Source: Luteolibacter luteus (GTDB taxonomy: Bacteria > Verrucomicrobiota > Verrucomicrobiia > Verrucomicrobiales > Akkermansiaceae). Taken from it: a DNA stretch of 64,000 bases. Location of the stretch: contig NZ_CP051774.1 of NCBI RefSeq assembly GCF_012913485.1, forward strand, positions 248,001 to 312,000, read 5' to 3'. A model generated the notes under the pieces. The model had not been told where the DNA came from. It saw only the letters and a list, made by a program, of their open reading frames with translations, and made no database searches. The position numbers and the translations under genes were made by a program. Positions 1-14,444 of this stretch are shown in pieces (the first letter of the stretch is position 1; each line of letters opens with the position of its first letter).

Positions 1-521
1 GCGGCCTTGCTGCACTCCGAGATCACGCCGAAGCCCCAGATCTTGTGATCGAATTCCGAACGATGCTTCTGCCATTCCTCCAGTGCCTTCCACGGATCCT
101 GCTCGGCGAGCTTCATCAGGAGCATCTCTCCCACGTGGTCACGCGCTTTTCCCGCTTCCATGCCCCGCGCACGTTCCCAAGCCCCCCAACCGAGCCGGTC
201 GATCAACTCGTCCTGCACGAGTCCCCATGCCTCGATCCGCACATTCGGCATGCTCGCCAGCCAGCGCCATAGTGCCTCGGTATCACTCGCAGCAATGCTG
301 CGCTTCAGAATGAGCTTTCGATCCGCTTCATCCTTTGCCGCGGAAATATCCGCCGGAGTCCATGAGCCCCCCGAAGCTTTTCCGCGCGAGCCGGACTTCG
401 CAACGACTCCCGGTGCTGCCGCGGCTGGTTCCCCACGGTGCCCGAGAGAGTATCCGGCGGCGAGGCACGCGACGCATGCCCCGAGATAAAGAAGCGGATG
501 AACCGTGATCTTTCCAGCCAC
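1..521 (-). CDS. W-DP repeat exported protein, partial (runs off the left edge)
   Basis: No recognised function. The reading frame is open from a GTG at 521 to the window edge, so about 173 residues of the N-terminal part are seen. GTG is chosen because AGGAGAGG lies 7 nt upstream, one of the best ribosome sites here. The N-terminus (HPLLYLGACVACLAAGYSLG) is a hydrophobic signal or anchor segment, followed by an Ala/Gly/Ser linker and a helical region with Trp-rich units such as LWRWLAS and LAEQDPWKALEEWQ. It shares these units with the four genes to its right and with the gene at 11282, so it belongs to a local paralogous family. It lies 56 bp downstream of the next gene on the same strand and is probably cotranscribed with it. 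Confidence 0.75.
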   Translation of the reverse strand, partial: MAGKITVHPLLYLGACVACLAAGYSLGHRGEPAAAAPGVVAKSGSRGKASGGSWTPADISAAKDEADRKLILKRSIAASDTEALWRWLASMPNVRIEAWGLVQDELIDRLGWGAWERARGMEAGKARDHVGEMLLMKLAEQDPWKALEEWQKHRSEFDHKIWGFGVISECSKA

Positions 522-577
522 GCCCTATCCTCTCCTAGGAATGCAGATGGAAGTCAATCCGCGCTCCGCTTCATCTA

Positions 578-1780
578 CTACTCCGGCCGTGGCAGGCGCT
601 CGAGCACGCGGGCCCGCGCTTCCTCATCCGGGATGCTCTCCGCCCATGCACGCGCCGATACCGGATCACCGGGCATGAGGTAGTTCACGTAGACATTCAC
701 GGATGCTCCGTAGCCAGGGCTGTTGACATTCCCCTTCAGCCATGTGGTGGCGGCATCCAGATCACGCTCGCACCAGCGGTCCATCGCCTGCTCCATGGCG
801 ATCCTGCTGCCGATGCGTCCGGCCCAGTCCATTGCAGCCTGCGGGTCCTGATCGGCCAGGCTGCGCGCGGTGTTTTTCACGACATCGCTCCGGTCCATCC
901 AATCGGACTTCATGTTCTCCTCGATCCATGCGGCGGTCTTGGCGGGCTCATCCTTGCTCTTCACGGCAGCGACCGCTTCCACCGCGGTGACGAGCCCATC
1001 CGGATTCGCATCCTTGTCCAGTGAAGCGAACCAAGCATCCACTCCCTCCTGTCCGCCGCGACGTCCGATCGCTTCCACCACGATCTGGTACTGAGCTGAC
1101 GAAAAATCATCCCGCGCCAGCATCCATCTGCCCGCGCCCTCCGGATCCGTCGAGCTCCAGCCGCGGACGAAGGCATCGCCAAGCTTGTTGCCGAGGTGGA
1201 GCGATTGGTGATTCTGCTCGATGAACTTCAGCGCCGCCGTGTGATCCTGCCCGGCCCATGCTGTGATGGAGCGGAACTCCGCCTCCGCCGGTGCCGCCTT
1301 GTCCCAGAGGTTCCAGTCCTGCTTGAGGATGAAATCAAGGGCACCCGCAGGATCCTTTTCACCCCACTGGGTCCAGAGCATCGTCCACTCCTCCGGGCTG
1401 CTGCTGCCCTTCAGGTCGTTCTCGCGGATCAGCTCAACCATCTCATGATAATGCTCCGCTCCGCCTTTTTCCAAAAGCGCACGAAAGCGATCCAGCCGGC
1501 GCTCCGATGAGGGATCCCGAAAGATGGCGCGCACCGACTCGGCGAAGTCCTTTGATTCACCCTCAACAGTGCTTCGCTTCGCTTGGCCGGCACCATTCGA
1601 CTTCGCGCCGAATGAGCTTCCCCCGCTCTTCTCACCTGCGCTCTTCGAGGAGGCCGAGTCCGTTTGAGCGGTCGCCGTAGTTGCCGCGGCACCCGAGCTT
1701 CCCCGTGCGATCCATCCCACGCAAGCCCCCACAGCCAAACCCGCCGTCACCAACAAAATCGATCGGAGATGCGTCGCCAT
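578..1780 (-). CDS. W-DP repeat exported/anchored protein
   Basis: 400-residue protein of unknown function. The start at 1780 gives MATHLRSILLVTAGLAVGAC, a clean hydrophobic N-terminal segment; the frame continues upstream but adds charged non-signal sequence. A Ser/Ala/Lys linker (to about residue 75) precedes a repeat region with units spaced 30-40 residues apart: WGEKDPAGALDFI, WAGQDHTAALKFI, WSSTDPEGAGRWM, LADQDPQAAMDWA and CERDLDAATTWL. Each matches a Trp/Leu-x3-Asp-Pro-x2-Ala pattern, suggesting a TPR/Sel1-like helical solenoid on the outer face of the membrane. It is transcribed toward the partial paralogue and divergently from the gene at 1932. Confidence 0.8.
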   Translation of the reverse strand: MATHLRSILLVTAGLAVGACVGWIARGSSGAAATTATAQTDSASSKSAGEKSGGSSFGAKSNGAGQAKRSTVEGESKDFAESVRAIFRDPSSERRLDRFRALLEKGGAEHYHEMVELIRENDLKGSSSPEEWTMLWTQWGEKDPAGALDFILKQDWNLWDKAAPAEAEFRSITAWAGQDHTAALKFIEQNHQSLHLGNKLGDAFVRGWSSTDPEGAGRWMLARDDFSSAQYQIVVEAIGRRGGQEGVDAWFASLDKDANPDGLVTAVEAVAAVKSKDEPAKTAAWIEENMKSDWMDRSDVVKNTARSLADQDPQAAMDWAGRIGSRIAMEQAMDRWCERDLDAATTWLKGNVNSPGYGASVNVYVNYLMPGDPVSARAWAESIPDEEARARVLERLPRPE

Positions 1781-1931
1781 GTTTTGTCTGCGGTCATTCA
1801 AGAGGGTCCGCACCGGATCACAAGGCGATACCGGGACATCTGCTCGCCCAGCTTTCGTTATGCCTCGGGGCTTGCGCCGCATGACCGGAAGATGAATAAA
1901 GTCGGAAACACTCTCACGCTCTTCTCCTTCC

Positions 1932-2960
1932 ATGCGTCCGTCCCCCATCTGGTTGCTCCCGCCGTTTCTGGCGGTGGCTGCCTATTTCGCGGGCCGGGCG
2001 AATTCAGCGGATCCATCCGGAAGCAACGCGGCCATGACCGCGGACGCACATCAGGACATGGCACGCGAGAAGCCGATCAAGGATTTCGCAGCGGAGTTAG
2101 AGCGCTTGAATCAGGAATGGCGGCTGGAGGACGAGATGCAGACCGTCAATCCTTCGACCACATTCACGAAGTTCAATGGAGAGCAGCTCCGCGCACGAAT
2201 CGAGGCCCTGATGAAAAGCCGGGAGGCAGGGGAAGACTCGCGCGACTGGGACCAGATGAGGGCCGATGAAGAGAACCTCGATAAGGCGATCCACGATCTC
2301 GCGATTCAGGAAAAGAAAGAAGCGCTGGATTGGATCAATGAGCATTTCCCTGCTTACCGGAAAGCGCTGATGCAGGCTTGGGCGGCTGCCGATCCCGATG
2401 GAGCCCTGCAAGCGGTCATTGGCAGCAAGCGCAAGCCGCCCTGCTCTTACGACACGCTCTCCGAGTTGCTCCAAGATCTCGCGACACAAAGCCCTGCTGC
2501 TCTTCGTGAAGCCTGCGATCAGGTGCCATGGGAACTCTTTTCCAACACCGATGCCGATGAAGATCCTTTCGGAGGCTTATCAGGCATCTCTATACCCCAC
2601 GGCACCGACCCTCGTCCATGGATCGAAACTGGAGTCGCGGAGGAATTGGCACGCAAGGGCGTATCGATCAACGGCCTTTTCTCCGAATGGGCACGGCTTG
2701 ATCCGGCCGGTGCCTTGGCCCGCGTTGAAGATTGGCCCGATCCTAATTTTCCGGCTAGCACACGGCTGGGCGATCTGCTTTGGACAGGGATCGGAGACAA
2801 ACAGCGCGCGGCGAAGATTTCCGAACTCTTGGAAAAACTGCCTGCTGAAAGCCTCGCCAAGATGGCAGTGATCGCCAGTGAGAACACGGTTCACGACGAG
2901 TTGGTGGAGGCCTACCCCATCCTGCGCATCAAAGATGCTGATGCTAGCAAAGAGAAGTGA
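1932..2960 (+). CDS. W-DP repeat exported protein
   Basis: 342-residue protein of unknown function. The N-terminus (MRPSPIWLLPPFLAVAAYFA) is a signal or anchor segment. The mature part contains WAAADPDGALQAV and WARLDPAGALARV, the same repeat unit as in the neighbouring genes, plus a charged central segment (about residues 45-120) that may be coiled. It is divergent from the gene ending at 578 with 151 bp between starts, so the two may share a promoter region. No Shine-Dalgarno is visible (pyrimidine-rich before ATG). It meets the next gene convergently with a 150-bp gap in which no hairpin was seen. Confidence 0.75.
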   Translation: MRPSPIWLLPPFLAVAAYFAGRANSADPSGSNAAMTADAHQDMAREKPIKDFAAELERLNQEWRLEDEMQTVNPSTTFTKFNGEQLRARIEALMKSREAGEDSRDWDQMRADEENLDKAIHDLAIQEKKEALDWINEHFPAYRKALMQAWAAADPDGALQAVIGSKRKPPCSYDTLSELLQDLATQSPAALREACDQVPWELFSNTDADEDPFGGLSGISIPHGTDPRPWIETGVAEELARKGVSINGLFSEWARLDPAGALARVEDWPDPNFPASTRLGDLLWTGIGDKQRAAKISELLEKLPAESLAKMAVIASENTVHDELVEAYPILRIKDADASKEK

Positions 2961-3110
2961 AGCCTGCGGACACCATTCATTCGCTACCGAACCGATTAGC
3001 CGAGGTCTGCAAGCACTGCCTTGCCTGCTCCTGAATCACCGATCCACGATCCGATCCACCGCCCAGCGGAGATTTTCCACGGACCCTGCATCCTAAGTGA
3101 AAACCATCCC

Positions 3111-4370
3111 TCAGTTCCCCTCCTCATACTTCTGGGTAATCTGCGACCTGGCTTCTTCCGGCAACTTCAATTCTTCCATCGCCGATTGAAAGAACCCCGT
3201 GATTTTCTCCCTTTGGAGCGGAGGCACATTTACAGACTGGAAGCTGTAGCTGCGAGCTACCTCCAGCAGGGCGTTGGCTCGCGACCCTTCATCAGGAAGA
3301 CACTTCAGCATCTCCAGCCCGCTATTCGACATCGGGAAAACACAGGTCGCCACGAGGGCCACTCGCTCCTCGTCATTTCTCAACAGCGGCAGCAACACCC
3401 TGGCACCTTCCGGCGTGAGCTGGCCTTGGCCACGCAGCCCCCGCACGGCCTGCATCCGCTTATCCTCGGGAATCTCATCAAGCTTCGGGATGATCCACTC
3501 CGCTGCTTTCCGATCCCCCTCCATCAGGGCTACCCCGGAGAATAGCACACCCATGTCATGAGGATTGTCCACTCCCTCAGCGGCGCTTTCCCTGATGCTG
3601 GCCCACGCGGCGTCCTTATCCTTCGCTGCCCAGTACTGCATCGCAGCATGCGAACGGTAATCACCTTTCATCCCTTTGGCAAAGAGCTTGAAATCAAAAT
3701 CCTCCGGGAACCTTCCACCGGGAAACGAGGCCCCTCTCAAGCGCTCACCGTAGAGTTGCCGCAACTTTAGCAGGGCTTCCGCACCGCGGGAGGTTGCGCC
3801 TCTCACCGCCTCGTTCGCGATGGTGCTCACCATCCCTTTGCCGAACTCCTTCTCGTAACCGTCCAACCAAGGGAGCGCCATGCCCGGATCGTCAAACGCC
3901 GCCGCGGAGATCATATTGAAGAGGACGACGCGCCTGCCTTCTCCGAGAGCGAAGGCCCAGCGGATCCCGTCCTCACCTTCCCGTCGGTAGAGCTCCTTCG
4001 CCGCCATCTCGATGGCTCGATTCATCGCGATCCGATCGTCGCCAGCTTCCTTCAACTGCCCGGCGAACTCCGCCATCAGATCCCTCAGCTCCACATCCGA
4101 CATGCGTTCCATTTCGCGTTGGAGCTCGGGGTCTCCGGAGTCCTGGCGCTGCCGCCACCGCAACAACGCCGCCAAATCATGCTTTCCCCGCACCTCCTTC
4201 GGTCCCGCGGCGCGGGAGCTCTCCGCCTCCATGCGTGCACCGGTCTGATGAGCTGCATCCGCCGATGCATCGTCCTGCACCACCTTCTTCCCGGCGAAGC
4301 TCCGCTGGCCACTCGCTCCCGCCAACAAGCCAGCCACGAGGGCCAGCATCCCGAGGACGCTCCCCTTCAT
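3111..4370 (-). CDS. W-DP repeat exported protein
   Basis: 419-residue protein of unknown function. The start at 4370 gives MKGSVLGMLALVAGLLAGASG, a good signal peptide; the extra upstream residues of the open frame are hydrophilic. The ATG overlaps the stop of the upstream gene by 4 bp (ATGA), suggesting translational coupling. The body carries the family units in diverged form (DDPGMALPWLDGY, WAAKDKDAAWASI) and a long helical N-terminal half with many Arg/Glu pairs. It is probably the last gene of an amidase-paralogue-paralogue transcript. Confidence 0.75.
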   Translation of the reverse strand: MKGSVLGMLALVAGLLAGASGQRSFAGKKVVQDDASADAAHQTGARMEAESSRAAGPKEVRGKHDLAALLRWRQRQDSGDPELQREMERMSDVELRDLMAEFAGQLKEAGDDRIAMNRAIEMAAKELYRREGEDGIRWAFALGEGRRVVLFNMISAAAFDDPGMALPWLDGYEKEFGKGMVSTIANEAVRGATSRGAEALLKLRQLYGERLRGASFPGGRFPEDFDFKLFAKGMKGDYRSHAAMQYWAAKDKDAAWASIRESAAEGVDNPHDMGVLFSGVALMEGDRKAAEWIIPKLDEIPEDKRMQAVRGLRGQGQLTPEGARVLLPLLRNDEERVALVATCVFPMSNSGLEMLKCLPDEGSRANALLEVARSYSFQSVNVPPLQREKITGFFQSAMEELKLPEEARSQITQKYEEGN

Positions 4371-5611
4371 GGTGCCAGGCCCTTCATGATGAATTCGATC
4401 TGCTCCGGCGTCGCCTGCCATTCTCCGAGCTTCCTGCGCAGGAACTCCCCGTGACTCTTCGCGTTAAGGTAAATCTTTCGTTCGATACCTTCTCCCTCCG
4501 CCGCGGAGAGAACTTGCTGGATGGCTGCGATCCGCTTCGAGGGTTCACTTACCTTTTCCAGCAGCGCCAGTGCATCAGGTACAGCTGGTCCGTTCAGAGC
4601 CGCCGCACCATAGCGCAGGAGAGTCTGTTCTTGGAGGGCGGGATCCTTCAGACCCTCGACAAGAAGGCCCGCGAATGAGGGGCTATACCGGAAAGCCGAA
4701 TCCACCGATCCGAAGAACACTTCCTGCTGATCCGCATTCATCGCCTCGACCTTGCCCCCCAGCCACTGCATGTCGGCACGCAGATTACCACCCACTCTGT
4801 ATGTCAGGTTAAACACACTTTCCAAGCCATGCTTCCGCTGCGTCCAAGCGTAAGCCGCTTCCCGATCCTGCGCGAACCACTGCCGGGCGAACTCTTCCCC
4901 GATTCCATTTTCCCAGATCAGATCGAGCTCGGGGGAATCCATCAGCGTTTGGAAATTGAAGTCCTCCGGAACCTTGAGTTCCTCTCCCAAATTGGCGAAC
5001 TCCAGTCCGGCATCCTGGATCTTCCGGATCATCACCTTCACCGCCTCAGGCCCCTCCCCGGTGCTATGCTGGATTGCCTTGTTCAGGATCAGCGAGCCCG
5101 AGACACCCGGAAAGGAATCGCGATGCGAAGCCAGATAGTCAACGCCCTCTGCCGCCCGCTCCAGCGGCCATCGGGAAGCCATGCCCTGCAGCAGCTTGCG
5201 CTTCATCGTGCCCGTCTCCAGTGCCTCCATCCATGCCAAGGCAGCATCCAGATCTCGCTTCATCCACACGCCCAAAAGCGATGCCGGAAGCTCTGACGCG
5301 GGGCCGTCGGACAAAAGGCAACCGGGGTGCTTCAGGCTGGCCTCCAGCGCCGCGCGGATCTCTGCGGTGGTCCAATCCGCCACGACTTCCTCATATGCAT
5401 TGAAGCCCGGCGAACTCACCTGCTCTGCCCGTTCCTTCGCGGAGCGGAGGACATCTTCACGCGTCCACTTCTGCTTCGGCACCGCTTTCTCAATTACTGC
5501 GACCGGCTTCGCTTTCTCAGGGACTGCCGTCTCCGGGGTCACCTTCACGAAGGAGCTGAGTCCCCATCCCGCAGCCGCTGCGATGACAAAGATCAGGCCG
5601 GACTTAAGCAT
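4367..5611 (-). CDS. W-DP repeat membrane-anchored protein
   Basis: 414-residue protein of unknown function. It starts with MLKSGLIFVIAAAAGWGLSS, a single hydrophobic anchor, then a Pro/Lys linker. Repeat units include WMKRDLDAALAWMEAL and WFAQDREAAYAWT, matching the paralogues on both sides. Its stop overlaps the next gene's ATG by 4 bp, and it starts 48 bp after the stop of the amidase gene, so the three probably form one transcript. The association with a peptidoglycan amidase is the only functional hint and is weak. Confidence 0.75.
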   Translation of the reverse strand: MLKSGLIFVIAAAAGWGLSSFVKVTPETAVPEKAKPVAVIEKAVPKQKWTREDVLRSAKERAEQVSSPGFNAYEEVVADWTTAEIRAALEASLKHPGCLLSDGPASELPASLLGVWMKRDLDAALAWMEALETGTMKRKLLQGMASRWPLERAAEGVDYLASHRDSFPGVSGSLILNKAIQHSTGEGPEAVKVMIRKIQDAGLEFANLGEELKVPEDFNFQTLMDSPELDLIWENGIGEEFARQWFAQDREAAYAWTQRKHGLESVFNLTYRVGGNLRADMQWLGGKVEAMNADQQEVFFGSVDSAFRYSPSFAGLLVEGLKDPALQEQTLLRYGAAALNGPAVPDALALLEKVSEPSKRIAAIQQVLSAAEGEGIERKIYLNAKSHGEFLRRKLGEWQATPEQIEFIMKGLAP

Positions 5612-5659: not shown

Positions 5660-6271
5660 CTACTGCGCCAGAACACCGGTGACCGCGCCGGACAGTGCCT
5701 TGATGAGTTCCCGCTGATATTCGGGGCTCCGGATGTTCTTCAGGTCATCCGAGTTCGAGAGGTAGCCGAGTTCCAGCAGCAGCGCGCCTTTGTTCCCCAG
5801 AAATGCTCTTCCCAAGTGGCCATTGCTGACCACGGGTTTCGCGCTAAGCTCGGCGCTGAAGGCTTTTCCGATTTGCTCCGCCAACTCGTTCTCCTTCGGG
5901 CTGAGATCGGCCAGTTCGGCCCGGGGGCAGCGGTAGATGCGGATGCCATGGTCGGAGCTGTTCTTGCTGGAGGAAAGATGGATGCCGAGCACGACGTCCG
6001 CCTTCGCTTGATGAACGAGTGCTTCGCGGTCCTTAAGCGGCAGAAATTGGTCCTCGGTGCGGGTGAGGATGACGATGTGGCCCTGTGCCTTCAGCTCGGT
6101 TTCCAGTGCCTTCGCGAAAGATATTGCCCACTCGGATTCCTTCAGCTGCTCCGCGCTGCCACCCGGATCCTTTCCGCCGTGACCGGGATCGATGAGGATG
6201 GTGCCGGCGAAGGCAGGCGCGGCCAAGGCCAGCAGGGCGGCTGCAGCACGGGCGAGAAGTGGATTGAGCAT
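5660..6271 (-). CDS. N-acetylmuramoyl-L-alanine amidase (Amidase_3 / AmiC type)
   Basis: 203-residue exported zinc amidase that would cleave the bond between muramic acid and the stem peptide of peptidoglycan. The start at 6271 has GGAG 9 nt upstream and yields a signal peptide (LLARAAAALLALAAPAFA); an ATG three codons earlier at 6280 is also possible. The mature protein is a bare catalytic domain: IDPGHGGKDPG holds the first zinc His, the Glu in KESEWA is a likely second ligand, GIHLSSS holds the third ligand, and LLELGYLSN holds the catalytic Glu. There is no AMIN or SPOR domain, so targeting must come from elsewhere. It is the first gene of a likely transcript with two W-DP repeat genes. 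Confidence 0.88.
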   Translation of the reverse strand: MLNPLLARAAAALLALAAPAFAGTILIDPGHGGKDPGGSAEQLKESEWAISFAKALETELKAQGHIVILTRTEDQFLPLKDREALVHQAKADVVLGIHLSSSKNSSDHGIRIYRCPRAELADLSPKENELAEQIGKAFSAELSAKPVVSNGHLGRAFLGNKGALLLELGYLSNSDDLKNIRSPEYQRELIKALSGAVTGVLAQ

Positions 6272-6419
6272 GGTCTTCATCTCCGGGGGAAAGGGGGCTT
6301 GGATGAGCGAAGGGACGCAGAATATCATAACTGCATAGACAGGCGGTCCCTCTGCTTCAAGCATGGTCTCGATCTTTCTTCCACTGCGGGGGCCTCTCAT
6401 GTCAGCCTGCCCCCGTCTC

Positions 6420-6899
6420 ATGAAACCCGGACTGATCCTTGTCTCCCTGGCATTGCTTTCCTGCGATGGCGCGAAGGATTCCACGCCTGCGCCTGCCGAC
6501 CCCGCGCAACGCGCTGCAAAGGCGGGTACTCCGACGACGCGCGCGCTGGAATCCAAGGCACGCACACGCGATGCAGTGGAGGCGGATACCGGTGCAATCG
6601 CGGTGCGCAAGATGGAGAAGGCGCTCAAGACCTCCGATCACGATGCCGCCTTGCAGGCCTTTCAGGAGTTGCTCGATGTGGGGCAAACGATGGCTGATGA
6701 TGCAGCCCGCCATCCACAGACGCCCGACAAGCACTCGCGCATCCAGAAGAGCAGAGTGGATGAAGCAAGGATCGCGCTGCGCAATCACGGCGTGGACCAG
6801 AGTGCGATCGACCAAGCGTGGCTGAGATACAGCAAGGAACTCTCGAGGGTCTCCGCAATCCGGGAGCTTGAGGTGCTCGACTCGGGCCGTACGCGATAA
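6420..6899 (+). CDS. Predicted small lipoprotein
   Basis: 159-residue protein. The start at 6420 gives MKPGLILVSLALLSC, a lipoprotein signal with lipobox L-L-S-C, so the mature protein would be lipid-anchored at Cys15. An ATG at 6399, just after a G-rich stretch, would only lengthen the n-region. The mature part has an Ala/Pro/Thr linker followed by a helical charged region (about residues 60-155) without a recognised domain. It is divergent from the amidase gene, with about 150 bp between starts. Function unknown. Confidence 0.65.
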   Translation: MKPGLILVSLALLSCDGAKDSTPAPADPAQRAAKAGTPTTRALESKARTRDAVEADTGAIAVRKMEKALKTSDHDAALQAFQELLDVGQTMADDAARHPQTPDKHSRIQKSRVDEARIALRNHGVDQSAIDQAWLRYSKELSRVSAIRELEVLDSGRTR

Positions 6900-11281: not shown

Positions 11282-12526
11282 ATGAAGCTCGGACTTGACC
11301 GGAAATACACTGTGGCAGTGCTCAGCGTGCTATGCGTCGCGCTCGGGGTGGCTCTCTTCATGGAACGCCAGAAGCGTCCACAGCCGGGGGATCAACCGAG
11401 TGCCGAGGGCAGCAAACAGCCTGCGGCGGAATCAAGAGCACCGCGCCCTTCTCCGGAATCGCGGACGGCGCGACCGGACAAATCGAAGGACACAAAGATC
11501 GCTTCCGCGGAAGCCGCGGTCTCAGCTTTTTCCTTCAAGGGGGATTACAATGGGATGCTCGCCGAACTGGAGAAAATCCCACCGGATGAGCGATCCCTCG
11601 CACTCCTGACGATCGCATCGGATCTCTGCGGGATACGTGGAGATATCCGCGCGACGGAGAGGTGCCTCGCCTTGATCCTCGAATCGAACTTGCTGCCCGG
11701 AGAGCGCGACAATTGTGCCTCGAAGCTTCTGGGACAGTCCGCCCACCAGAGCCTGGCAGCATTTGAATCCGCCTACACGGCAATCCAGCAATTCGCCAAA
11801 GATGGCGTGATTCCCGATGTTTACCTCCGGTCCATTTTCAGCAGCAAACACATATCCCTGAGTGATGCGGTGGAGAGAATCCAATCCCTCGGGACCGCCG
11901 ATGAAAAAGCGGCTGCTTCGATGGGGCTAGCCGGAAGGATGTCTACCGCCACCAATCTGGCCGAGGCCGGCTGGGATGAAAACACGTTGAAGAACATCAA
12001 GGACCCCGTCATCCAGGAAGGGCTCCTGACCGGGCTGAACTGGAGAATGGCCCAAGTCCCCCGGAAAGCGCGCGAGGAAGCATTGACCCGGCTGACGCTG
12101 GACGTCGCCGCCCAGATTCAGGCAGGCAACATGGACGCGAGCCGCTTCCCGGCCTTCTCGAACGGGCTAGAGCGCTTTGCCCCGGACAAGGCGTGGAGCA
12201 AGATGCTCGCGGATCAGGAGACGCGGGCAAAGCTGCCGGAGGGTGTTTTACTCGATCTGGCGAAACAGTCCGCGGCATCGTGGGCAGATCGCGAACCGGC
12301 GGAAGCCGGAAAGTGGGCCGCCACCCTGTCGGCCAAGGAACAGGAAGCCGCCGTTCCGGGCGTGGTATCCCGCTGGCTAAATACCGATGCCCCTGCAGCC
12401 ACGGAGTGGGTGCAGACGCTTCCGGAAGGCCCGGTGCGCAATGCTGGGATCACCGAGATCATCCGCAAGGTGGAAGGCTCCGATCCGGAACTCGCCGCCC
12501 AATGGCGAGAACTGATGGCGAAGTAA
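11282..12526 (+). CDS. W-DP repeat anchored protein
   Basis: 414-residue protein of unknown function. Residues about 9-26 (YTVAVLSVLCVALGVALF) form an N-terminal anchor, followed by a Pro/Ser/Lys linker to about residue 75. The C-terminal half carries family units: WADREPAEAGKWAATL, WLNTDAPAATEWVQTL and GSDPELAAQWREL. It is separated from the paralogue cluster at 1-5.6 kb by the amidase and ABC genes. It ends 30 bp from the convergent AKR-like gene. No Shine-Dalgarno is visible. Confidence 0.75.
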   Translation: MKLGLDRKYTVAVLSVLCVALGVALFMERQKRPQPGDQPSAEGSKQPAAESRAPRPSPESRTARPDKSKDTKIASAEAAVSAFSFKGDYNGMLAELEKIPPDERSLALLTIASDLCGIRGDIRATERCLALILESNLLPGERDNCASKLLGQSAHQSLAAFESAYTAIQQFAKDGVIPDVYLRSIFSSKHISLSDAVERIQSLGTADEKAAASMGLAGRMSTATNLAEAGWDENTLKNIKDPVIQEGLLTGLNWRMAQVPRKAREEALTRLTLDVAAQIQAGNMDASRFPAFSNGLERFAPDKAWSKMLADQETRAKLPEGVLLDLAKQSAASWADREPAEAGKWAATLSAKEQEAAVPGVVSRWLNTDAPAATEWVQTLPEGPVRNAGITEIIRKVEGSDPELAAQWRELMAK

Positions 12527-12556: not shown

Positions 12557-13459
12557 CTAAGAGCGAAAGAGGTCGAGGAGCTTGGTCCGGAGGCCTGCAT
12601 CTAGCATCGGCCCGTGCGCGGCCTCGGCGAGTTCCGCGAGCGACGAAGGACTGGGCATCGTAATCACTGATGATGTGATCGCGGGATGGGAGAGCGCAAA
12701 CTTGAGGAAGAGCTGGTGCCAAGACTTGCACCCTAGCTCGGCAGCCCATCCAGGCAGCTCCATGGTATCCGCCTTCACGGCAATTTCCCCGCCTCCCAAA
12801 GGACGCGCCGCGATCACCGCGATGCCCTTGTCAGAGGCGACTCCGAGCAGCCTCTTGTCCGCCATGGACCTGCTGATCGAATAGTCGATGTGAATGAAAT
12901 CAATGGGCACGGAGGCAGCCAACCGCGTCATCTCCTCAAAGTAACGATTGGAAGGAATCGAGTGCTCGAGTCCAATATATCGCACCAGCCCGTCCTTCTT
13001 CCATCCGCGCAGGGTATCGAGGTGCACTTTGGCGTCCACGAGATCTGCCACCAGCATCAGGTCCATCTTCTTCGTTCCGAGGCACTCCATTGTTTCCTTC
13101 ATGGAAGTCACTCCCGCCTCCTTGCCCTGCGCCCTTACCATCCCGGCGAGGAAAACCTTGTCCTTCACCCCAAGCTTGCCGAGCGCATTGCCGATGACTT
13201 CATCCGCGCCTTCATGACGCGGGGAGACCATCACCATCTTTCCTCCCATCTCAACAAAGGGCTTCAAGACTTCTTCGACCTCGGCGGGCCGCTTCTCCGG
13301 AGTATTCGGAGCCGAAACCACCCCGAACACCGGAATCTTTTCACCCGTAAAAGGAATCGCACGAAGCGGGATCGAAAGAGGAGCCGCTTGGTCCGCGGCC
13401 CTAATCGGAGACACCGCTGCGCATGCGGTGAGAAGACGGAGGCTTTCCCGGCGATTCAT
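12557..13459 (-). CDS. Aldo/keto reductase-like exported protein lacking the catalytic tetrad (copy 1)
   Basis: 300-residue protein. The N-terminus (NRRESLRLLTACAAVSP) looks like a Tat signal, so the protein is probably exported folded. The body follows the AKR barrel subfamily marked by GKEAG, the LVDAKVHLDTLRGWKKDG helix and RYIGLEHS. The active-site Asp and Tyr segment reads MVSPRHEG, the Lys strand reads FLAGMV, and the His strand reads LMLVADLVD, so Asp, Tyr, Lys and His all appear substituted. Reductase activity is therefore unlikely. It is a tandem duplicate of the next gene, 82 bp away. Confidence 0.8.
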   Translation of the reverse strand: MNRRESLRLLTACAAVSPIRAADQAAPLSIPLRAIPFTGEKIPVFGVVSAPNTPEKRPAEVEEVLKPFVEMGGKMVMVSPRHEGADEVIGNALGKLGVKDKVFLAGMVRAQGKEAGVTSMKETMECLGTKKMDLMLVADLVDAKVHLDTLRGWKKDGLVRYIGLEHSIPSNRYFEEMTRLAASVPIDFIHIDYSISRSMADKRLLGVASDKGIAVIAARPLGGGEIAVKADTMELPGWAAELGCKSWHQLFLKFALSHPAITSSVITMPSPSSLAELAEAAHGPMLDAGLRTKLLDLFRS

Positions 13460-13541: not shown

Positions 13542-14444
13542 CTAGGAGCTGAAGAGTTCGAGGAGTTTGGTCCGGAGCCCAGCATCCAGCATCGGACCCT
13601 GTGCAGCCTCCGCGATCTCCGCAAGCAGCGAAGGAGCTGCCATCGTCAGCACCGATGAAGTGACCGCCGGGTGAGAGATGGTAAACTTGAAGAAGAGCTG
13701 ATTCCAAGTCTTGCACCCCAACTCTGTCGCCCATCCAGGCAGCTTCATGGCCTGAGACTTGATGGCGATGTTCCCGCCCCCCAAAGGGTTGTTCGCGATT
13801 ACTGCGATGCCCCTGTCGGATGCGACTCCCAACAGCTTCTTGTCCGCTTGGGGCATGTTAGGCGAATAGCGGACCTGGATGAAATCAAGGGGTTCGGTAG
13901 CTGCCAGCCGTGTCGTCTCATCCAAGTATTGGGGAACAGGAAACGAGACTTCAAGTCCGAGGTAGCGTATCAGCCCGTCCTTCTTCCAACCACGGAGGGT
14001 ATTGAGGTGCGCTTTCACATCAATGAGGTCTGATATCAACATCAGGTCCATCTTCTTTGTGCCGAGATTCACCATAGTCTCCTTCATGGAGGTCACTCCT
14101 GCCTCCTTGCCCTGTACCCGGATCATCCCGGCGAGGAAAACCTCATCCTTCACGCCAAGCCTGCCGAGTGCATTACCGATGGCTTCGTCCGCGCCTTCAT
14201 GACGCGGGGAGACCATCACCATCTTTCCTCCCATCTCAACAAAGGGCTTCAAGAACTCCTCGACCTCGGCCGACCGCTTCTCCGGAGTATTGGCAGCCGA
14301 ATCCACCCCGAGCACCGGGATCTTTTCACCCGAAGAGGGAATTGCCCGCAGCGGGATTGAAGTAGCAGCCGCTTGATCCGCGGCCATGACCGGAGAAACC
14401 GCCGCACATGCGGTGAGAAGACGGAGGCTTTCCCGGCGATTCAT
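13542..14444 (-). CDS. Aldo/keto reductase-like exported protein lacking the catalytic tetrad (copy 2)
   Basis: 300-residue tandem paralogue of the gene at 12557, identical in length, with the same Tat-like N-terminus and the same substitutions (MVSPRHEG, FLAGMI, LMLISDLID). Both copies keep full length, so the losses predate the duplication and the proteins are evidently maintained. AAGGAG sits 2 nt before the ATG, a poor spacing. The leader upstream of both copies is also similar, so the duplication unit included about 60 bp before the start. Role unknown; a ligand-binding or scaffold function is possible. Confidence 0.8.
   Translation of the reverse strand: MNRRESLRLLTACAAVSPVMAADQAAATSIPLRAIPSSGEKIPVLGVDSAANTPEKRSAEVEEFLKPFVEMGGKMVMVSPRHEGADEAIGNALGRLGVKDEVFLAGMIRVQGKEAGVTSMKETMVNLGTKKMDLMLISDLIDVKAHLNTLRGWKKDGLIRYLGLEVSFPVPQYLDETTRLAATEPLDFIQVRYSPNMPQADKKLLGVASDRGIAVIANNPLGGGNIAIKSQAMKLPGWATELGCKTWNQLFFKFTISHPAVTSSVLTMAAPSLLAEIAEAAQGPMLDAGLRTKLLELFSS

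Follow-up and report, generated by a model that had tools for sequence, protein, structure and literature searches.

A family of anchored W-DP repeat proteins in Luteolibacter luteus, often encoded as overlapping gene couplets and in part joined to extracytoplasmic function sigma domains

The window analysed here, a stretch of 64,000 nucleotides from the genome of Luteolibacter luteus (G000:C1:248001-312000 of a single contig of 6,412,079 bases), carries six genes, designated A to F (Table 1), whose products form, as judged by sequence comparison, one family of anchored proteins with a W-DP repeat for which neither Pfam nor NCBIfam holds a model. Genes A to E were found to form the end of a cluster of 18 family genes (26.6 kb, G000:C1:227050-253611). 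Members of the family are frequently encoded as couplets of neighbouring genes, of which 27 were identified in this genome, nine of them including a gene with an extracytoplasmic function (ECF) sigma domain. The best reading of this arrangement, to which an even chance is given, is that the couplets encode co-translated, paired and anchored solenoid proteins that act as envelope-side receptors, a subset of them being fused to an ECF sigma factor, with the genes of the window representing the version without sigma. A preliminary description of the window had pictured an expanded family of anchored repeat proteins linked with a peptidoglycan amidase. This proved incomplete, as the couplets, the true extent of the cluster and the ECF sigma fusions were all missed; its six genes were retained (with refined coordinates for A, B and D), but its count of five neighbouring genes is too low, the cluster continuing upstream.

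The motif W-x3-D-P-x2-A, given in the preliminary description as the core of the repeat, was found five times in A to F against 0.03 copies expected, with five or more copies in none of 2000 residue shuffles, and the looser form [WL]-x3-D-x3-A was found 19 times against 2.37 expected (0/2000 shuffles), the first 45 residues of each of the six proteins being excluded from both counts. The repeats are therefore real and above chance, but the strict form is confined to A (one copy), B (two) and C (two), the units of E and F are weaker and none in D was accepted by a profile. When a profile was built from 30 seed units, with D, E and F contributing none, E scored 1.6e-5, and D and F failed to reach 1e-2. 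With an iterated profile trained on family members, the genes A to F among them, the E-values were 8e-14 for A, 5e-25 for B, 2e-12 for C, 9e-8 for E, 5e-3 for F and 0.11 for D. The consensus of 155 units, selected by the iterated profile itself, is PDGEARDELLEGLLSAWAERDPEAALAWLESLPEGAARAR, written as LLSAW-AERDP-EAALAWLESLP, with its core positions conserved at 77% (W), 90% (D), 95% (P) and 89% (A). Protein D is counted as a family member because of its homology to E (BLASTP 5.8e-5) and the conservation of the E-D couplet, and not by way of its repeats. The N-terminal anchors described previously were recovered as a hydrophobic segment in all six proteins, weak in C (best 19-residue Kyte-Doolittle mean of 1.22).

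Comparison of 59 of the approximately 79 family members with Pfam returned nothing better than E 0.005 and no repeat family better than 0.007, the best of these being Sel1 (0.007, one member), TPR_6 (0.0073, one member) and TPR_19 (0.0076, two members). No TPR or Sel1 match at E <= 1 was obtained for the proteins of the window; HEAT_2 reached 0.055 at best among the 59 members (13.3 bits in B, against a cut-off of 27.7), and no Pfam match to PPR or ARM was listed for them. NCBIfam gave only two matches to these members, both unrelated and confined to a single member (0.0008 and 0.0014). Assignment of the repeat proteins to a known family by means of Pfam, NCBIfam or PADLOC was thus rejected, no repeat-family match being better than E 0.007; when the sequences of the PDB were searched with the unit profile, the matches were for the most part antibody heavy chains, with a few unrelated proteins, and were taken as chance. 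The dedicated, expanded and unnamed family of the preliminary description is borne out by the absence of any strong profile match to a known repeat family and by its size.

Regarding this size, a genome search with the 30-seed profile at E <= 0.01 yielded at least 92 matches, and the iterated profile gave 67 open reading frames (ORFs) at E < 1e-3, or 80 when those with E < 1e-2 or linked by BLAST were included. Removal of a spurious overlapping ORF (1403220) and of a short EF-hand-like protein (3833191, which does have units), and addition of the sigma gene 2600975, results in approximately 79 genes in 6.41 Mb, spread across 34 of the 41 stretches examined. This is a lower bound, since scoring in the unit search covered 150 of 379 candidates, and by a rough estimate corresponds to over 1% of the genes of the genome. 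In a sample of relatives, for which at most 150 candidates were scored per genome and some genomes were incomplete, 26 of 38 genomes matched at E <= 1e-3, namely the genome of the window, all 17 others of the genus (with 3 to 58 matches each) and eight of 20 outside it. Across the phylum, 27 of 288 genomes matched at E <= 1e-5 (with no more than 26 scored candidates in each genome), and a scan of named genomes identified two loci, one in an Akkermansiaceae metagenome-assembled genome (MAG), where the protein looks the same in starts and length as that of the same-genus genome G005, and one in a Pseudomonadales MAG. This distribution indicates that the genus-level expansion is real and that the repeat itself is wider. 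The Pseudomonadales locus (L148:5092-6894) encodes an anchored-looking W-DP repeat protein of 600 aa with no Pfam match at E <= 0.1, and its neighbours, as judged by eye, are a short-chain dehydrogenase-like ORF and two ABC-transporter-like ORFs. In addition, a short exported-looking protein (L077:7192-7884) was observed to combine an EF-hand-like start (24.5 bits, cut-off 25.4) with two W-DP units.

In the stretches examined, family or ECF genes that neighbour each other on one strand form 55 pairs, and in 32 of these the second gene has an in-frame start at exactly -4, this start being taken as the in-frame start nearest to -4 (the longest-ORF start itself lies at -4 in 18 of 55). Couplets were defined by a start offset of -20 to +10, and after five junctions around the tandem X-Y couplets of the cluster had been removed by hand, 43 of the 55 pairs were left. 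The start of D at position 4370 causes E and D to overlap by 4 bp (ATGA). Since bacterial operons often contain ATGA overlaps, such junctions point to joint translation and to nothing exotic. The E-D couplet recurs as nine adjacent couplets in four relatives (six of the nine at -4), the X-Y couplet recurs in two relatives and C-A in one; in G015 the best relative of C (32% identical) is the first gene of a couplet and a relative of A (45% identical) is the second gene of one. The identity matrices of X and Y mirror each other (50/56, 35/35, 33/32 and 28/29), the four tandem X-Y couplets are mutually only 23-35% identical, and best hits keep their position in the couplet in 79 of 86 cases (0/5000 permutations). 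By sequence comparison, couplets thus duplicate and diverge as units. The anchors were also inspected for a GxxxG pairing motif, which was set aside since its excess is modest (32 against 22 expected, a value reached by 13 of 1000 shuffles, in 72 rows that include a few wrong starts).

Of the 51 matches to Sigma70_r2 in the genome, nine lie in genes, termed tethered ECF genes here, that combine the sigma domain with a hydrophobic segment near residues 225-265 and a C-terminal part (C-part) of approximately 300-450 aa. Sigma70_r2 is over its cut-off in all nine, as is TIGR02937, which spans regions 2 and 4, in all eight proteins scanned (seven of the nine and 230991 of the cluster), and by these matches the sigma regions are those of ordinary ECF factors. 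The unit profile recognises six of the nine C-parts at E < 1e-3 and that of 5011325 at 0.028, with 5007923 (profile E 21) tied to the family by 132 bits to 5115780, and 2600975 (profile E 5.0) linked to it solely by its partner and a single unit recognised by eye. A partner gene was found directly downstream, on the same strand, for all nine, starting at -4 in eight cases and at -1 in one. Eight of the partners have an N-terminal transmembrane segment by hydropathy and one is lipoprotein-like by eye; eight match the profile at 1.1e-3 or better, and the remaining one, 5006667, fails (72) and is 58% identical to a partner in G003 that does match (9.8e-6). Because approximately ten residues or fewer precede the transmembrane segment, the partners have no room for an anti-sigma domain. 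Seven of the nine were among the 59 members compared with Pfam, where the only anti-sigma match was to FlgM (0.067, one member) and none indicated a class I anti-sigma factor. An ECF42-type TPR domain was looked for in two of the nine C-parts, with no Pfam match at E <= 0.1.

Searches made for family genes reached seven tethered ECF-solenoid genes in relatives, a count that leaves out long frames such as those of G014:C5 and G010:C154 (both 693 aa). Six of these have a partner at -4 (three in G003 and one each in G007, G121 and G115, the last two genomes belonging to another genus of the same taxonomic family), and one, G015 541925, is without a partner, its C-part being homologous to the stand-alone cluster protein 234874 (1.7e-34). 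Overall, a cognate anchored solenoid gene follows 15 of 16 tethered ECF-solenoid genes in six genomes and two genera. Cognate partners are co-inherited with the sigma genes, the sigma C-parts and the partners of the 15 couplets falling into the same classes (Spearman 0.70; Mantel 0/5000). Four other tethered ECF genes of the genome (230991, 1441552, 1846141 and 4219269) have C-parts that are off-profile and no profile-matching ORF directly downstream. Another type of C-part was observed in the tethered ECF genes L124:7553-9094, L128:7142-8827 and L127 (G000:C1:4219269-4221806); two C-parts of this type were scanned, with no Pfam match better than E 0.09, and inspection by eye showed a shared DEQQ-like stretch in at least two. 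At L199 (G003:C5:130595-131035), an ORF of 146 aa like a tethered-sigma C-part, in which no sigma domain was found, is followed by a partner-like gene (129345-130598), and this pair is perhaps a couplet that lost its sigma.

Structure prediction, the check suggested with the preliminary description, was performed for B and E using AlphaFold2 with thin alignments (five and two sequences, respectively). The model of B (mean predicted local distance difference test score, pLDDT, 75.9; predicted template modelling score, pTM, 0.60) has a transmembrane helix at residues 6-24, disorder to approximately residue 62 and then 20 helices with block pLDDT mostly of 77-94, and the model of E (mean pLDDT 69.8, pTM 0.58) is all helical past residue 50, its anchor not being modelled as a helix. 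In B, the next helix starts directly after D143, D179, D212, D312, D340 and D372 (six of six, five of them one-residue breaks), as is seen in E after D120 and D249, with W (or L) near the end of the preceding helix and A inside the following one. Both proteins are therefore predicted to be alpha-solenoids, and the helical repeat units proposed previously are supported by the models, W and the conserved D lying at recurring helix-turn positions. Each unit would consist of two helices, the first ending in W/L-A-x-x, with D-P capping the start of the second, which would hold A and W as packing residues. Among the neighbours listed for the two models, the nearest solved structures are PPR, importin, SF3B and other HEAT/ARM chains; the comparison with PPR, HEAT and ARM chains gave VIA Z values of up to 11.4 with a root-mean-square deviation mostly of 12-20 A, which is below the safe level of the tool for helical repeats, and Foldseek returned no match to either model at E <= 0.001 (TM-scores of approximately 0.1-0.33).

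In the mechanism proposed, A to F would each encode an alpha-solenoid protein that crosses the membrane once, through an N-terminal anchor, all six belonging to one family that diverges fast. The functional unit of this family would often be a couplet of two genes co-translated via the ATGA overlap, the products of which may pair to form a receptor with two solenoids at the outer face of the inner membrane. Some couplets have, in their first gene, an ECF sigma domain ahead of the transmembrane segment; in these, the receptor itself is proposed to be the transcription factor, and with the sigma domain in the cytoplasm and a single transmembrane segment, the C-part would lie outside. The partner is almost without an inner part and therefore could act only on the outer solenoid or within the membrane, where it may take the role played elsewhere by an anti-sigma factor. 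If a ligand or envelope protein bound to the paired solenoids or left them, the tethered sigma would become more or less available for RNA polymerase, the state of pairing or of the ligand setting its activity or release. The window's pairs, which lack a sigma, would most likely belong to the same system and serve for sensing or as scaffolds on the envelope side. A more specific version, held tentatively, is that these proteins constitute a class of transmembrane switch made of a membrane-spanning ECF sigma, an outer alpha-solenoid and a co-translated solenoid partner that replaces the anti-sigma factor, in which at least 27 related pairs would compete for or present ligands.

Several points weigh against the receptor reading, the whole case for which is computational. 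Its weakest step is that the pairs without sigma would be the same receptor lacking its own output: between couplets with and without sigma, best hits keep their position in 39 of 86 cases, which is chance level, so that equating the two kinds draws on layout and positional homology between them is unsupported. Moreover, approximately 61 of the 79 family genes encode neither a tethered sigma nor a sigma partner. For the sigma domain, agreement with the partner is almost as close (Spearman 0.65) as for the C-part, so that simple co-inheritance may account for the co-divergence. Two of the nine tethered sigmas (6043567, 1.60; 5414456, 1.41) have a weak hydrophobic segment, the best-conserved class of tethered-sigma C-part was found in only four of 141 genomes of the order, and no sigma-like ORF was seen in 21 repeat loci of other genera (flanks of approximately 1.5 kb). 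A shared ECF-type promoter was also sought and rejected, no shared motif being found upstream of 56 heads against 314 controls, with gene starts taken from the longest ORF and hence partly misplaced.

The foremost alternative, which is considered unlikely, is that the proteins are envelope scaffolds for cell-wall remodelling, the solenoids holding or regulating peptidoglycan amidases and other periplasmic enzymes, with the sigma fusions a side use. It draws on the Amidase_3 gene that lies 48 bp upstream of E in the same orientation and on a second Amidase_3 gene (with a lipoprotein-like start by eye), which follows the couplet 3256313-3254583 on the same strand approximately 50 bp away, so that two of the seven Amidase_3 genes of the genome adjoin family genes, against approximately 0.1 expected by a rough estimate (some 5,300 genes and 70 flanking positions), and in G007 an amidase homologue (1e-48) is located close to the cluster. 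However, an amidase gene is the upstream gene in none of the nine E/D couplets of relatives, and an amidase search of the stretches examined found no further amidase. The amidase was consequently discarded as a fixed operon partner, and of the link drawn in the preliminary description only the local adjacency stands, making the link weak but not nil. Slightly less probable still is that a general envelope module for protein binding simply expanded by paralogy, without a common pathway, and that co-translation only keeps unstable partners together; the unit does occur outside couplets (B, F and others), in the short exported-looking protein with an EF-hand-like start and in the anchored-looking 600-aa protein of the Pseudomonadales MAG, but sigma and partner classes are co-inherited across two genera. 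A diversifying recognition array (for kin or partner recognition, or for phage or toxin exclusion) of tandem diverged paralogues, each pair with its own surface ligand, is improbable. It is favoured by the divergence of the tandem X-Y couplets, the differing cluster content of relatives and match counts of 3 to 66 among 18 genomes of the genus (under the same limits of scoring and completeness), and disfavoured by PADLOC, in which only a weak OloA match was found (two of 59 members). The best of these OloA matches (4e-5, 21 bits) is to the family member L069:6441-8504.

Table 1. Coordinates of the genes of the window and of features of the cluster (positions in the window, unless marked as those of the genome)
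Feature	Position	Strand	Description
Gene A (5' part)	3..521	-	Anchored W-DP repeat protein; full gene 389 aa, leaves the window, extending to G000:C1:247352
Gene B	578..1780	-	400 aa; transmembrane helix at 6-24, linker (disordered, to 62), then 20 predicted helices with D/DP at six helix turns
Gene C	1932..2960	+	342 aa; anchored W-DP repeat protein
Gene D	3111..4370	-	Second gene of E-D couplet; repeats too degenerate for the profile
Gene E	4367..5611	-	414 aa; first gene of E-D couplet; all-helical model
Amidase_3 gene	5660..6481	-	Not a family member; 48 bp upstream of E, co-directional; Amidase_3 match 1.3e-32
Gene F	11282..12526	+	414 aa; detached family member, weak units at C-terminus
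Tandem X-Y couplets in cluster	236240-237379, 238508-240022, 241261-242412, 243777-244816 (genome)		
Tethered ECF sigma gene in cluster	230991-232475 (genome)		494 aa
Anchored gene of another family at cluster edge	G000:C1:225646-226989 (L027:11646-12989)		447 aa

The ORF of gene B opens at 1948, with its start most likely at 1780. Two clearly paralogous ORFs of 300 aa lie next to each other (12557-13459 and 13542-14444) and have a near-identical start (MNRRESLRLLTACAAVSP). The 447-aa protein at the cluster edge shares 58-64% identity with genes located close to the G007 and G015 clusters, against mostly near 30% for the repeat genes there, and 10 of 18 genomes of the genus contain matches to it.

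With these findings, an abundant unnamed family gains a testable place as paired envelope solenoids, some of them joined directly to a sigma factor, and the layout suggests a little-known bacterial way of sensing the cell's own surface. The control of ECF sigma factors without an apparent nearby anti-sigma factor is raised as an open question in PMC8103513, and if the receptor reading is true, the couplets would be one answer to it. A weak search of open-licence PMC papers by titles and abstract starts found no paper on the W-DP family or on transmembrane-solenoid ECF factors, and neither Pfam nor NCBIfam has a model for the repeat family, the transmembrane-solenoid ECF or the solenoid partner. 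Solenoids and extended ECF factors are already known; what appears to be new, as far as sequence comparison goes, is the W-DP repeat family, the transmembrane-solenoid ECF and its solenoid partner.

The predicted fold resembles the alpha-solenoids of TPR, PPR and ARM/HEAT proteins in its stacked helix pairs, PPR, importin and HEAT chains being among the nearest structures of B and E, but the family differs from these in its own W-DP-A signature and its membrane anchor, with TPR, Sel1 and HEAT giving nothing better than E 0.007. WD40 repeats form beta-propellers. The planctomycete ECF sigma factors with WD40 are similar in joining an ECF sigma to a repeat domain and in having many young paralogues, but no paired partner gene is mentioned in the available part of that report (PMC8567305), whereas here an alpha-solenoid and a partner are found. 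As outlined in PMC8103513, ECF41 carries a SnoaL C-terminal extension and ECF42 a TPR extension, so the likeness is that of a sigma domain with a C-terminal extension, which in ECF42 is a helical repeat. In the tethered ECF proteins, by contrast, a hydrophobic and probably transmembrane segment lies between the two, the repeat belongs to a different family and the sigma gene is overlapped by the gene of a second solenoid. Finally, pairs of an ECF sigma and a membrane-bound anti-sigma factor share with these couplets a sigma gene followed by a membrane-protein gene in one unit, but here the partner is without room for an anti-sigma domain and the sigma factor itself seems to span the membrane.

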